Assembly: GCF_003234965.1 (NCBI RefSeq)
Contig: NZ_QKVK01000001.1
Span: 248,001 to 312,000 of the forward strand
DNA from: Aestuariivirga litoralis
Lineage (GTDB): Bacteria; Pseudomonadota; Alphaproteobacteria; Rhizobiales; Aestuariivirgaceae
Reading direction: 5' to 3'
DNA length: 64,000 nt
Shown: positions 48,114 to 53,065 of the stretch, piece by piece
Position numbering within the stretch: the first letter of the stretch is position 1
Layout: each line of letters starts with the position of its first letter
Made by a program: the position numbers and the translations under genes
Notes under the pieces: generated by a model
Databases searched by the model: none
Told to the model about the DNA's origin: nothing
What the model saw: only the letters and a program-made list of their open reading frames with translations

Positions 48114-48752
48114 TCACCAGCGCAGCATCCTCCGGCCGGCCAGCGCCCCGACGAGGCCGAGCGCCAGGATGCCGACGGGATACCATGCCAGGACGAAGAG
48201 AGGCGAATCGTCGGGGCAGTTGGCGGCATAGAAGGTTGCGCCCACTCCCCCCGCGAAAAGGCCTACCAGGAAGCCGCTGAGCATGGGACGCGTGGTCGCC
48301 CCCTGCCGCAGCGCCCATAAACCGATTGCCAAGGGTGCCAGGCCGAAAGCGGGAACCAGGGCGAGGCAGTGCCACCAGTTGGTGCCCACCGCCGCCACGC
48401 CCCAGGTGGATGCCGGAAGCAAGGCGAGTTCCACGGCCGCTGCCGCGAGCAGGATGGCGGGTGCGGCGAAGATCGTCCAGAACGGCGCCTGTTCGAGGCC
48501 TTCGGGATAGATGGCGCGGCGCAGCAGCAGGAAGGCCGTGGCCGCCAGCGTCAGGGTGACAGCGAACTTCATGTCGAAGCGCCAGGTCGCGACGGCGGCG
48601 GCGAAGTCCGGCCGCGGCCCGAAACTCAGCATCATCGCGGCCCCCGCGAGGAGGCATGAGGCGGCTGCCGCCAACCCAAGCCGCAACGCCGGTGATGAGC
48701 GCTGCGCCGGCGTATCGGCCGCGAGGCGGGAGATCAGCTGGTCGGTCTTCAT
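48114..48752 (-). CDS. nrsF: NrsF-type membrane anti-sigma factor (DUF1109)
   Basis: 212 residues with six hydrophobic helices. MKTDQLISRLAADTPAQ is the cytoplasmic N terminus. The two family-conserved cysteines are Cys129 (WWHCLALVPAFGL) and Cys179 (AANCPDDSPLF), close to the positions reported for Caulobacter NrsF, where they matter for metal sensing. It overlaps the ECF sigma gene by ATGA and is expected to hold that sigma inactive at the membrane until copper or chromate stress. Confidence 0.88.
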   Translation of the reverse strand: MKTDQLISRLAADTPAQRSSPALRLGLAAAASCLLAGAAMMLSFGPRPDFAAAVATWRFDMKFAVTLTLAATAFLLLRRAIYPEGLEQAPFWTIFAAPAILLAAAAVELALLPASTWGVAAVGTNWWHCLALVPAFGLAPLAIGLWALRQGATTRPMLSGFLVGLFAGGVGATFYAANCPDDSPLFVLAWYPVGILALGLVGALAGRRMLRW

Positions 48753-49300
48753 GCCGGGCGCCCGAAGCGCTGGGCAATGGCGCTGAGGCCGCGGTGGAAG
48801 GCGACGCGCACCGCCGTCTCCTTCATCTCCAGAGCGGCGGCCGTTTCCTTGATCGTGCGGCCCTCGAGGGCGATCGACGACACGACCCGCTGCTGGCCGC
48901 CGCTCAGTGTTCCCACTGCCATTTCCATGTGCTGCGTCTCCTCCATCAAGCGTCCCGTCTCGTCCGGCCCGGCCAGCACCTCGGCAAAATCCTCGATCGG
49001 CACTTCGACCCTCACCCCTCGCCTGCGGCAGGCATCTATCGCCTTGTAGCGGGCAATGGTGAAGAGCCACGGCAGGATCGGCTCCTCAATACGCCACGTA
49101 TGGCGTTTCAGATGCACCGCCAGCAATGTTTCCTGCACGACATCCTCGGTGCCGGAGGCGAGCATGGATCCAAATCGGCGGGTCACGGCGCGGCGCGTCA
49201 GGTTCGCGGCGCGGCGCAGAAACGATGTATAGGCCGCCTCGTCACCGCTCAGCGCGGCGCGCATCAGCTCTGCCATCGCGCGATCCTCTTCCGAGGCCAT
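48749..49300 (-). CDS. sigF: ECF RNA polymerase sigma factor, SigF type
   Basis: 183 residues from ATG 49300. Region 2 is LMRAALSGDEAAYTSFLRR to VQETLLAVHLKRHTW and PWLFTIARYKAIDACRRRG. Region 4 is LSGGQQRVVSSIALEGRTIKETAAALEMKETAVRVAFHRGLSAI. The promoter motif GTAACA-N16-CGAA lies directly upstream on its own strand, and again before the divergent bufferin genes, so it should activate both. The nrsF overlap and DUF2282 target identify the SigF group. A longer upstream start is possible but would cover the promoter. Confidence 0.9.
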   Translation of the reverse strand: MASEEDRAMAELMRAALSGDEAAYTSFLRRAANLTRRAVTRRFGSMLASGTEDVVQETLLAVHLKRHTWRIEEPILPWLFTIARYKAIDACRRRGVRVEVPIEDFAEVLAGPDETGRLMEETQHMEMAVGTLSGGQQRVVSSIALEGRTIKETAAALEMKETAVRVAFHRGLSAIAQRFGRPA

Positions 49301-49310
49301 TCCACAGTCT

Positions 49311-49336
49311 TTCGTCACGAACGGGGGATTTGTTAC
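49311..49336 (-). promoter_or_regulatory. ECF (SigF-type) promoter of sigF-nrsF
   Basis: On the minus strand GTAACA (49331-49336), a 16-bp spacer and CGAA (49311-49314). Same elements and same spacer as the promoter facing the bufferin genes. Confidence 0.8.
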
Positions 49337-49400
49337 ACGGCACCTTCCGCCTGACAAGCCGATGCAATCGCTCACACGTGATCACGGCTGCGTGTGGCCT

Positions 49401-49426
49401 GTAACAATCCCCACGCCGGAGCCGAA
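49401..49426 (+). promoter_or_regulatory. ECF (SigF-type) promoter of the bufferin operon
   Basis: GTAACA (49401-49406), a 16-bp spacer and CGAA (49423-49426), about 50 bp before the first start codon. It matches the GTAAC-N16-CGAA pattern described for Caulobacter SigF targets. Confidence 0.8.
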
Positions 49427-49476
49427 CTTCTCCACGTCGGGCCACTGATGCTCGTCGTTCCAGAGAGGAAACCACC

Positions 49477-49740
49477 ATGAACAATCTGCTCATCGCGTCT
49501 GCCGTTGCCGCCGCACTGGCCCTTCCCGCCGTCGCCGCCGCGCAGGCAGGTCCGACACCGGCCCCGTCCTATGCCGCCGAAAAGTGCTTCGGCATCGCCA
49601 AGGCCGGCGCGAACGATTGCGCCTCGATGACCGGCACGCATTCCTGCGCCGGCATGTCGAAGGTCGACGCCGATCCCAATGAGTGGGTCTATGTGCCGGC
49701 CGGCTATTGCAGCCGCATCGTCGGTGGCCAGACCAAGTGA
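49477..49740 (+). CDS. bufA1: Bufferin-type precursor peptide (DUF2282, BufA1)
   Basis: 87 residues with signal peptide [21 protein letters not shown]. The core has four conserved cysteines: Cys37 ([14 protein letters not shown]), Cys48, Cys57 (GTHSCAG) and Cys78 (PAGYCSR). Bufferins are periplasmic ribosomal peptides whose cysteines are modified by the DUF692 enzyme and bind copper. The gene is the first of an operon behind a SigF-type promoter; its modifying enzyme follows. Confidence 0.9.
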
Positions 49741-49794
49741 CGCGCCACGGCGGGGCGGCCCCCGGGCCGTCCCCCGTTCCCCCGGGAGATCGCA

Positions 49795-50655
49795 ATGACC
49801 AAGCCATTTTCGTTCCGGCAGGCAGGCGTCGGCCTTCGGCTCGAGCATCTCGCCAAGGTGCTGCGCGACAGGCCGGCCGCCGCATGGTTCGAGGTTCACC
49901 CCGAGAACGTCCTCGCCAACCCTCATGCCGCGGAAATGCTGGCGGAGATTGCCGCCCTATATCCGCTGTCAATCCACAGTGTCGGCATCTCGGCGGGAAG
50001 TGCGAGCGGTCTCGACCGCACTCACCTCGCGCGGGTGCGCGGCCTCGTCACGCGCCTCGACCCCGTGCTGCTGTCGGGCCATCTCGCATGGTCCACGCAT
50101 GACGGTGAATACCTCAACGACCTTCTGCCGCTGCCCTATCACGCCCAGTCGCTGGACGTGATCTGCCGCCACATTGCCGAGATTCAGGATGCGCTCGGCA
50201 TGGTGTTCCACCTCGAGAACCCGTCCAACTATCTCGGCTTCGCGGAGTCCACCATGACCGAAACCGCCTTTCTCACCGAGGTCGTGAAGCGTACCGGATG
50301 CCGGCTGCTCTGCGACGTGTCCAACATCCATGTCAGTGCACACAACATGGGCTACGACGCCCGCCGCTATGTCGACGAACTGCCGGGCGAGGCGATCGGG
50401 GAGTTTCATCTCGGGGGCTTCGAACTGGAAACGGAGCCGGGCGGGACGAGCGTCATCATCGACACCCATGCCCGCCCCATCGCCACCGAGGCCTGGGACC
50501 TTTACGCCTATGCCATCCACCGCTTCGGACCGCGCCCGACGTTGATCGAATGGGACAGCGCCCTCCCCGCCATGGATGTGCTTCTGGCGGAGGCGGCCAA
50601 GGCCGACCGGATCGCTGAACAGGTTCTCGTGGACCGCCATGCCCTCGCTGTTTGA
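49795..50655 (+). CDS. bufB: DUF692 multinuclear non-heme iron oxidase (BufB)
   Basis: 286 residues, TIM-barrel. Candidate iron ligands are visible in WFEVHPENV, HSVGIS, LSGHLAWS, HLENPSNYLGF, CDVSNIHVSAHNMG and EFHLGGF. MNIO enzymes of this family (as in methanobactin synthesis) modify cysteines of the partner peptide with oxygen. Spacing of 54 bp from bufA1 and a 17-bp overlap with bufC support one operon. GGGAG precedes the ATG. Confidence 0.92.
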   Translation: MTKPFSFRQAGVGLRLEHLAKVLRDRPAAAWFEVHPENVLANPHAAEMLAEIAALYPLSIHSVGISAGSASGLDRTHLARVRGLVTRLDPVLLSGHLAWSTHDGEYLNDLLPLPYHAQSLDVICRHIAEIQDALGMVFHLENPSNYLGFAESTMTETAFLTEVVKRTGCRLLCDVSNIHVSAHNMGYDARRYVDELPGEAIGEFHLGGFELETEPGGTSVIIDTHARPIATEAWDLYAYAIHRFGPRPTLIEWDSALPAMDVLLAEAAKADRIAEQVLVDRHALAV

Positions 50656-51415
50656 GATGCAGGCGGGCTTCCGCGCCGCAATCGCCGGAGACGCTCCTGC
50701 CCCCCTTCTCGGCAGGCTGCATGCGCCCGCCAGCGTTGCCGGCCGGATGGAGATCTACCGCCGCCATCATCGTGAGAGTTTCCGCCGCCACCTGCGCGGC
50801 CGCTATCCCACTCTTGAGTGGCTGCTCGGAACCGATCGACTGCTGGAGCTGGCGGACCTGACGCTGCAGCGGTCACCGCCCCGCGCGCCCAGCATGGCCG
50901 AATATGGCGCTGCCTTGATCGAGACCCTCCGCAGCTGCGGCGATGACCTTCCGCCCTATGCCGCCGATGTTGGGCGCATGGATTGGCACCTCGGCTGTCT
51001 CTCCGTGTCGCTCGAGCATCAGCCGATGGCACTCGTCACACTGGCCGGCATCGACACGCTCCACCTGCCCCGGCTGCGCTTCACGCTGCAGCCCGGACTG
51101 GTCTTCATCCAGTCCGCCTGGCCGGTGGATGAATTGCTCCGCCTTCGCCTGCAGGACATCCTGCCGGACCGGTTCACCTTTGAGCCGTGCGAGACGCATC
51201 TGCAATTGCGGGGAGCACGCGGGGCATTCTCGCTGAACCGACTCGAACCGGACGTCTTCCAGTTCCGTGCAGGCCTCGCCGCCGGATGCAGCCTCGCAGA
51301 CGCCGCCACACGGGGCACGCAGGCGAAACCCGGTTTCGATCTTTCAACCGCACTTGCCACGCTCTTCGCCGAGGGGCTGGTCATTGCCCATTCAGGAGAA
51401 AACGTCGATGTCTGA
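50639..51415 (+). CDS. bufC: DUF2063 RiPP recognition partner (BufC)
   Basis: 258 residues from ATG 50639. The N-terminal DUF2063 domain (about 5-100) has LFEMQAGFRAAIAG, RMEIYRRHHRESFRRHLRGRYPTLEWLLG and PPRAPSMAEYGAALIE. The C-terminal part is beta-rich. Such proteins deliver the precursor peptide to the DUF692 enzyme. It overlaps bufB by 17 bp and doxX by 8 bp, indicating translational coupling. Confidence 0.9.
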   Translation: MPSLFEMQAGFRAAIAGDAPAPLLGRLHAPASVAGRMEIYRRHHRESFRRHLRGRYPTLEWLLGTDRLLELADLTLQRSPPRAPSMAEYGAALIETLRSCGDDLPPYAADVGRMDWHLGCLSVSLEHQPMALVTLAGIDTLHLPRLRFTLQPGLVFIQSAWPVDELLRLRLQDILPDRFTFEPCETHLQLRGARGAFSLNRLEPDVFQFRAGLAAGCSLADAATRGTQAKPGFDLSTALATLFAEGLVIAHSGENVDV

Positions 51416-51884
51416 CATCACCCATCCGGCTCCTGCCGGAATGACCTTGCGCGCACGCTTCCTTGCCTTGCGGGCGCTGTTCGAACGCGTGCCGCTGTCA
51501 CTCATCCTGCTCGCCATGCGCATTGCCATGGGTTTCGTGTTCTTCAATGCCGGGCTGCTCAAGCTTCGCTCGTTCGATTTCGCGGTGCAGCTCTTTGCCA
51601 ATGAATATCGCCTGCCGCTGCTGCCGCCCGAACTCGCGGCGCGGCTCGCCATGACGGTGGAACTCGGAGCACCGCTGTTTCTCTTCGCAGGGCTTGCCAC
51701 AAGGCTGGCGACCTTGCCGCTGCTTGGCATGACACTGGTCATCGTCACCCTCGTCTACCCCGCGTCATGGGTGGAGAGCCTGCTCTGGGCAAGCGTGCTG
51801 GTGATGATCCTGACGCGTGGCCCCGGCGTCATCTCGCTCGACCATCTCATCGAGCGCTGGTTCTCGGCGCGCGGCCAGGTCTAG
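51408..51884 (+). CDS. DoxX-family membrane protein
   Basis: 158 residues with four helices: LILLAMRIAMGFVFFNAGLLKL, LAARLAMTVELGAPLFLFAGL, LATLPLLGMTLVIVTLVYPA and LLWASVLVMILTRG. Typical DoxX, which ends many bufferin operons and may link the pathway to respiratory electron flow. It overlaps bufC by 8 bp; its stop overlaps the convergent chrA stop. Confidence 0.87.
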   Translation: MSDITHPAPAGMTLRARFLALRALFERVPLSLILLAMRIAMGFVFFNAGLLKLRSFDFAVQLFANEYRLPLLPPELAARLAMTVELGAPLFLFAGLATRLATLPLLGMTLVIVTLVYPASWVESLLWASVLVMILTRGPGVISLDHLIERWFSARGQV

Positions 51885-53065
51885 GCAAGCGACAACAGGG
51901 CTCCACCCGCGGCGAGGCCGAGGACCACGCTCCACGGCGGCATGCGCCACATGGTCAGCAGCACGAAGCCCAGCAGGGCCAGGGCGAAGTCTGCGGCGGT
52001 GTGGATCGCACTGGTCCACACGGGATTGTAGAGGGCCGCGCCCAGAACACCCACCACGGCGGCGTTGGCCCCCCGCATGGCGGCCTGGGCCAGTGGCCGC
52101 GAGCGGAAGGCGTCCCAGAACGGCAGGACGCCCACCACCAGCAACAGCCCCGGCAGGAACACGGCCACCAGCGCGATCGCCGCACCCGCGAGGCCGGATG
52201 GCTGCGGCCCCATCACTGCGCCGAGATAGGCAGCGAAGGTGAAGAGCGGCCCGGGAACGGCCTGCGCCGCGCCATAGCCGGCGAGGAAGGCATCGCCCGA
52301 CACCCATCCGGGCTGGACCACCGCGGTCTCCAGCAGTGGCAGAACGACATGACCCCCGCCGAACACCAGTGCGCCCGCCCGGTAGAAAGCGTCGAACAGC
52401 GCCACGCCCTGCAGCGGGAGGATGCTCTCCAGAAGCGGCAGCCCGACGAGCAGCAACGCGAACAGGACCAGCGCCAGCCAGCCGACGAAGCTCGGCACCC
52501 CGGAATTGATGTGCCCGACCACGCTCACCGGCAGCTTTCGGCAGAGCCAAAGTCCCATCAAACCGCCGGTGACGATGGCGGCAACCTGCCCCACCGAACC
52601 GCCGACGAAGACGACAAAGAACACCGCCAGCAGCGCGATCCCGGCGCGGTCGCGATCGGGCGTCAGCGCCTGCGCCATGCCCCAGACGGCCTGGGCCACC
52701 ACGGCCACTGCGACGAGCTTGAGGCCATGCAGCACGCCGGACCCGATGCCGGACCCGAACCAGCTTGCGCCAGAGGCAAACAGGATCAGCAGCAGGGCCG
52801 AGGGCAGCGTGAAGGCCGACCATGCCGCAAGCCCACCCAATGCCCCGGCGCGCAGCAGACCGAGCGAGAAGCCGACCTGGCTCGAGGCGGGGCCCGGCAG
52901 GAACTGGCAGAGCGCGACGAGGTCGGCATAGCCCGCCTCGTCGATCCACTTGCGGCGCACGACCAGCTCGTCGCGGAAATAGCCGAGATGCGCAACGGGG
53001 CCGCCGAAGGAGGTGAGACCAAGCTTCAGGAAGGCCAGGAATACTTCGCGGGCCGAGCCTCCCAT
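51881..53065 (-). CDS. chrA: Chromate transporter ChrA
   Basis: 394 residues in two homologous halves, each opening with the CHR motif: FLKLGLTSFGGPVAHLGYFRDELV in the first and GALVFGGGHVVLPLLE in the second; LPGPASSQVGFSLG and VPGPLFTFAAYLG are the paired proline loops. About 10-12 helices. It exports chromate. It begins directly at the stop of a Crp/Fnr gene on the same strand and is convergent with the bufferin operon, next to a sigma system that in Caulobacter responds to chromate and copper. Confidence 0.92.
   Translation of the reverse strand: MGGSAREVFLAFLKLGLTSFGGPVAHLGYFRDELVVRRKWIDEAGYADLVALCQFLPGPASSQVGFSLGLLRAGALGGLAAWSAFTLPSALLLILFASGASWFGSGIGSGVLHGLKLVAVAVVAQAVWGMAQALTPDRDRAGIALLAVFFVVFVGGSVGQVAAIVTGGLMGLWLCRKLPVSVVGHINSGVPSFVGWLALVLFALLLVGLPLLESILPLQGVALFDAFYRAGALVFGGGHVVLPLLETAVVQPGWVSGDAFLAGYGAAQAVPGPLFTFAAYLGAVMGPQPSGLAGAAIALVAVFLPGLLLVVGVLPFWDAFRSRPLAQAAMRGANAAVVGVLGAALYNPVWTSAIHTAADFALALLGFVLLTMWRMPPWSVVLGLAAGGALLSLA

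Follow-up and report, generated by a model that had tools for sequence, protein, structure and literature searches.

Our analysis indicates that a 64,000-nucleotide stretch of Aestuariivirga litoralis DNA (the window) very probably carries, at positions 48114-51884, a Buf1 bufferin locus controlled by the extracytoplasmic function (ECF) sigma factor SigF and its anti-sigma factor NrsF. SigF is provisionally assigned to group ECF16, a name taken from PMC6180224. The identity of the locus is well supported by profile matches, by orthologous loci and by promoters published in relatives. The first-pass annotation of the window had implied that the arrangement was new; however, papers of 2012 and 2018 had already described the same divergent locus together with its promoters, and sigma factor and NrsF genes were reported near Buf1 clusters in 2025 (PMC12452194). 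The locus represents an ordinary example, complete in all its parts, of an already known system.

Gene content and promoters of the locus

All six genes of the locus have intact reading frames, and each product matches a Pfam family above its cut-off. On the minus strand, sigF (48749-49300) encodes an ECF sigma factor of 183 amino acids with the Pfam sigma70 r2 and r4_2 domains and a score of 205 bits against NF009165 (cut-off 198). It overlaps by 4 nucleotides with nrsF (48114-48752, same strand), whose 212-amino-acid product is an anti-sigma factor matching PF06532 at 172.7 bits (cut-off 26.8) and containing Cys33, Cys129 and Cys179. The divergent operon, on the plus strand, begins with bufA (49477-49740); at E <= 0.001, the genome has no other DUF2282 match. 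This gene encodes a Buf1 bufferin precursor of 87 amino acids (PF10048, DUF2282; 91.6 bits, cut-off 22.4) with four cysteines (Cys37, Cys48, Cys57 and Cys78) and a hydrophobic N-terminus that, judged by eye, is typical of a Sec signal. A likely ribosome-binding site, AGAGAGGA, is predicted upstream at 49462-49469 on the plus strand. The next gene, bufB (49795-50655, plus strand), encodes a 286-amino-acid MNIO (DUF692) bufferin maturase, which scores 306.7 bits against PF05114 (MbnB_TglH_ChrH) and 327.4 bits against the NCBIfam model NF050167 (MNIO_BufB), over the cut-off of 310. BufB can be aligned to solved DUF692/MbnB proteins, and His61, His96, Glu141, Asp174, Asn177, His205, Asp223, His225 and Glu252 are identical in the structure alignments that cover them; we take these residues to be metal ligands. 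Overlapping bufB by 17 nucleotides, bufC (50639-51415, plus strand) encodes a DUF2063 partner of 258 amino acids whose match to PF09836 (47.5 bits, cut-off 27.2) covers N-terminal residues 6-95 only. The last gene, doxX (51408-51884, plus strand), overlaps bufC by 8 nucleotides and encodes a DoxX-family membrane protein of 158 amino acids (PF07681, 59.8 bits, cut-off 23.6). No NCBIfam match was found for BufA or BufC. The features of a Buf1 cluster are present (a four-cysteine DUF2282 precursor, an MNIO BufB and a DUF2063 BufC), and so are those of a SigF-NrsF system, namely an ECF sigma factor gene next to a PF06532 anti-sigma gene, the NrsF cysteine pair and GTAAC-type promoters on both sides. 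The full-length, four-cysteine bufferin with all its partners that the first-pass annotation described is borne out.

The ATG codons of sigF (49300) and bufA (49477) are separated by a 176-nucleotide gap (49301-49476), which contains two SigF-type promoters of the form GTAACA-N16-CGAA. One faces sigF (49311-49336, minus strand) and the other faces bufA (49401-49426, plus strand). Nothing else in the whole window matches GTAACAN{14,18}CGAA, for which 0.08 matches would be expected, and none of 100 dinucleotide-preserving shuffles reached two matches. These results confirm the pair of facing sites first called from the sequence. That call had also described the elements and spacer as identical, which is true of both promoter elements (the GTAACA hexamer and CGAA) and of the 16-nucleotide spacer length, but the spacer sequences differ. 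The CGAA lies 10 nucleotides from the ATG at sigF and 50 nucleotides from the ATG at bufA. The sigF mRNA is therefore probably almost leaderless, whereas bufA has a ribosome-binding site. For 14 loci whose sigF-facing promoter fits the strict motif, the distance from CGAA to the first start codon was 8-22 nucleotides.

Conservation across related loci

Conservation was examined in 121 loci, made up of 41 NrsF loci, among them that of the window (12 plus the 29 best further matches), and, from 375 SigF relatives in named genomes, the best 80. Four of these (L017, L018, L019 and L041) were dropped because they showed no SigF match on the correct strand, leaving 117. Cysteines are conserved at NrsF position 129 in 112 and at position 179 in 113 of 117 matches, the window's own counted, so that the first reading of Cys129 and Cys179 as a conserved pair holds. 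A divergent bufA, called by tblastn or by the four-cysteine pattern, was found in 40 of the 117 SigF loci (again counting the window). Among these 40, the strict motif was present on the bufA-facing side in 37, on the sigF-facing side in 27, on both in 25 and on neither in 1. When spacers of 8-25 nucleotides were scanned, matches occurred at 15 and 16 only. Spacers of 15 and 16 nucleotides were seen in 2 and 35 loci, respectively, on the bufA side, and in 7 and 21 on the sigF side, where a slightly wider region was used than for the count of 27 in 40. When these regions were shuffled 2000 times by mononucleotide, the motif turned up on the bufA-facing strand at a rate of 0.0005. This conservation and fixed spacing provide strong sequence evidence that both promoters are read by SigF.

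Two loci are organized differently. In G005, a genome of the same genus, nrsF and the DUF2282 match are about 6.5 kb apart, and the latter is preceded by a separate GTAACA-N15-CGAA, 180 nucleotides upstream and correctly oriented. Locus L043 (genome G170) is rearranged: bufA-bufB follow nrsF in the same orientation, and GTAACC-N16-CGAA stands between nrsF and bufA.

Comparison with known systems

The locus closely resembles that of Caulobacter crescentus, which comprises CC3252 (NrsF), CC3253 (SigF) and CC3254-CC3257 (DUF2282, DUF692, DUF2063 and DoxX) (PMC3511200). The same six genes form a sigF operon and a separate DUF2282-DUF692-DUF2063-DoxX unit in both organisms. The search consensus reported for C. 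crescentus, GTAACC-N16-CGAA, shares the N16 spacer and CGAA with the window, whereas its -35 element is GTAACC rather than GTAACA. There, the CC3254 promoter depends on the -35 element and on SigF, and the sigF promoter is SigF-responsive but not exclusively SigF-dependent (PMC3511200). Cys131 and Cys181, which matter in C. crescentus NrsF (PMC3511200), correspond to Cys129 and Cys179 here. In contrast to the single DUF2282 match in our genome, the C. crescentus regulon includes a second DUF2282-DUF692-DUF2063 operon and also an msrPQ/yedY gene.

A second relative is the RpoE7-EcfR7 (ECF16) system of Sinorhizobium meliloti, whose sigma factor is 52% identical to SigF of the window. Overproduction of RpoE7 raises ecfR7 and the divergent SMb20530-SMb20527 (PMC6180224), a target operon of four genes, with DUF692 and DUF2063 proteins among the members listed. 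The tabulated promoters are GTAACA-N16-CGAA for SMb20530 and GTAACA-N15-CGAA for rpoE7 (PMC6180224). The sigF-facing spacer is thus 15 nucleotides there and 16 here, and the two promoters are further apart in S. meliloti. We located both promoters again in the pSymB sequence record for S. meliloti R14, whose gene table shows the sigma factor, DUF2282, DUF692 and DoxX; this incomplete table omits DUF2063 and NrsF. In that record (L199:5000-5900), the anti-sigma gene that follows the sigma gene is not in the table, and NrsF-like residues occur in two reading frames; the gene may be broken.

With respect to bufferins themselves, sigma factor and NrsF genes lie near Buf1 clusters, and Buf1 of C. 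vibrioides carries cysteine-derived thiooxazoles (PMC12452194). These clusters share with our locus the four-cysteine DUF2282 precursor, the MNIO, DUF2063 and DoxX proteins and the nearby sigma/NrsF genes, and no difference was found in the features tested.

Proposed mechanism and alternative explanations

The sequence itself establishes which genes are present, that their frames are intact, and that the promoter pair exists and is conserved. From work on relatives, we infer that NrsF, a membrane-bound anti-sigma factor in which two cysteines are conserved, would hold SigF until metal stress inactivates it. Copper is the best-supported candidate signal. The freed SigF would transcribe from the two divergent GTAACA-N16-CGAA promoters, one raising sigF-nrsF and the other bufA-bufB-bufC-doxX. 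BufB and BufC would then convert the two central cysteines of BufA to copper-binding thiooxazoles, and the peptide, exported by Sec, would bind excess periplasmic copper. In C. crescentus, expression of sigF, nrsF and the operon goes up with copper in the four tabulated conditions, with two of the values significant by the laxer test only (PMC8224329).

Several observations weigh against this interpretation. NrsF scores 115.6 bits against NCBIfam NF042994, under the equivalog cut-off of 300, and DoxX scores 55.8 bits against the NCBIfam HvfX family, under its equivalog cut-off of 80. The sigF side is without the strict motif in 13 of the 40 bufA loci. No divergent bufA was found in 77 of the 117 SigF loci, some of which are short; SigF-NrsF is therefore not tied to bufferins everywhere. 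The first-pass annotation had also regarded autoregulation as shown. A SigF-NrsF pair with matched promoters is indeed present, but autoregulation is predicted from it, and the C. crescentus sigF operon showed only weak autoregulation under chromate or cadmium (PMC3511200), though copper induced sigF and nrsF there. Finally, a metal response in this organism is not guaranteed, because the S. meliloti reporters, of the same GTAACA type, were unresponsive to H2O2, CdCl2 and K2CrO4, copper not being among the agents listed there (PMC6180224).

It is also possible, but unlikely, that the same genes answer to a signal other than copper, with NrsF sensing another thiol-reactive stress (chromate, cadmium or an oxidant), or that the bufferin is directed at a different metal. 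SigF-dependent genes of C. crescentus are induced by chromium and cadmium too (PMC3511200), and the survey of 2025 points to probable functions other than copper handling (PMC12452194). Moreover, doxX is adjoined by chrA (51881-53065, minus strand; TIGR00937, 320.7 bits), which encodes a chromate efflux transporter and ends 4 nucleotides inside doxX. However, a C. crescentus sigF::Tn5 mutant is copper-sensitive, in contrast to its growth with chromate and cadmium (PMC8224329), and the thiol-depleting agent diamide and peroxides gave no induction of the regulon there (PMC3511200, PMC8224329). As for chrA, we rejected it as part of the system, since it is encoded on the strand opposite doxX and the window contains no further SigF-type site in its vicinity. 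It also had no tblastn match in the 121 related loci, of which only the 80 SigF relatives, taken with flanks of at most 4 kb, could have revealed one. A Crp/Fnr-like gene is located upstream of chrA.

A silent or decaying relic would be far less probable. NrsF is patchy (7 of the 37 examined genomes from this genus have it, and 12 of 61 relatives in all), but the six frames are intact, and the cysteines, the MNIO positions and both promoters are kept. DUF2282 was found in 32 of the same 61 genomes; therefore, bufferins in this group often occur without the SigF-NrsF switch. In the SigF tree, the window protein groups with G035 and then Jiella, whereas the proteins of two congeneric genomes, G005 and G008, cluster with those of Mesorhizobium camelthorni and Sinorhizobium. 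This placement suggests horizontal movement. Least credible of all is that both motifs match by chance and the operons are transcribed from promoters elsewhere: the looser form GTAACN17CGAA is not enriched genome-wide (6 sites versus 15 for the reversed control), nor in four relatives, but the sites have the exact position and orientation expected in the divergent gap, are conserved with fixed spacing in the loci counted above, and are of the kind published in S. meliloti (PMC6180224).

Further SigF-type sites in the genome

The first-pass annotation had suggested scanning the genome for more promoters. The 6 sites in the 4.23-Mb genome include the 2 at this locus; the other four comprise two inside predicted genes, one before a Bax1-I gene and one before a gene for a 95-amino-acid protein. 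The corresponding counts in the four relatives were 4, 12, 5 and 5, versus 17, 46, 41 and 7 for the reversed control. As the total falls below the control, we do not claim the four extra sites as regulon members. The Bax1-I family membrane protein gene (L005:738-1460) has GTAACT-N16-CGAA 40 nucleotides upstream of its ATG, probably by chance.

The scan did yield a third copy of the stricter TGTAACAN16CGAA, which occurs 3 times in the genome (2 at the locus and 1 before the 95-amino-acid gene) and 0 times for the reversed control. Over 61 genomes, however, there were 13 sites in 10 genomes versus about 54 for the reversed control (tallied from the table), and the motif is therefore not enriched in general. 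The gene it precedes, by 70 nucleotides, is located at L006:1597-1884 (contig C21 of the genome, 12211-12495 without the stop codon). Its product, predicted to be secreted, has a signal-like N-terminus, four cysteines in the rest of the protein and many methionines; it matched no Pfam family over the cut-off and no NCBIfam model. An ortholog in G001 is 68% identical, and both promoter elements are kept there, with 7 of the 16 spacer bases differing in a region that is 77% alike overall. In G001, no close SigF (best 27% identity), NrsF or DUF2282 was found. More distant homologs had no upstream motif; the SigF-bearing G008 has two of them, one examinable and the other with 55 nucleotides of upstream sequence. 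Further, the relaxed motif was absent within 350 nucleotides of the start of 11 other sigma factor genes (one of which, L145, has a misplaced start). Control of the 95-amino-acid gene by SigF is thus unproven: another sigma factor may read the third site, SigF may have been lost from G001, or the match may be fortuitous.

The last base of the -35 element

Among 35 non-redundant two-promoter loci, with or without bufA, base 6 of the -35 element was the same on both sides in 28. Agreement expected by shuffling was 11.5, and 0 of 20000 shuffles reached 28. The exceptions were L058, L064, L090 and L025 (A versus G), L010 (A and T) and L120 and L008 (C and G). Loci were labeled by the sigF-facing base where present and otherwise by that of the other side, and 19 of 82 non-redundant rows without a usable base were dropped. 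With these labels, 43 of 43 A/G loci have Arg at SigF residue 165 (window numbering) and 20 of 20 C loci have Lys; we take this residue to lie in the recognition helix of region 4. S. meliloti has Arg at the equivalent position and A on both sides at base 6; the C. crescentus element ends in C (GTAACC; PMC3511200). Because the A/G versus C split needs a single change in the SigF tree (support 100/98) and other SigF residues show the same split, the association is ruled out as independent evidence, and we offer the Arg/Lys link as a hypothesis only. No title in our literature listing on ECF16, its promoters or NrsF concerned this split, at which no search was aimed.

A wider proposal, which we consider doubtful, is that this SigF clade reads GTAAC(A/G) and the Caulobacter-like clade GTAACC, with Lys-to-Arg at residue 165 as the switch, giving two mutually insulated promoter languages. 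In the same proposal, the regulon here would also include the secreted, cysteine- and methionine-rich 95-amino-acid protein as a further periplasmic metal binder.

In conclusion, the window provides one clean further member of a known copper-stress system, and its value is comparative. The tendency of promoters within a locus to share the last -35 base points to a testable difference in promoter specificity between SigF groups.

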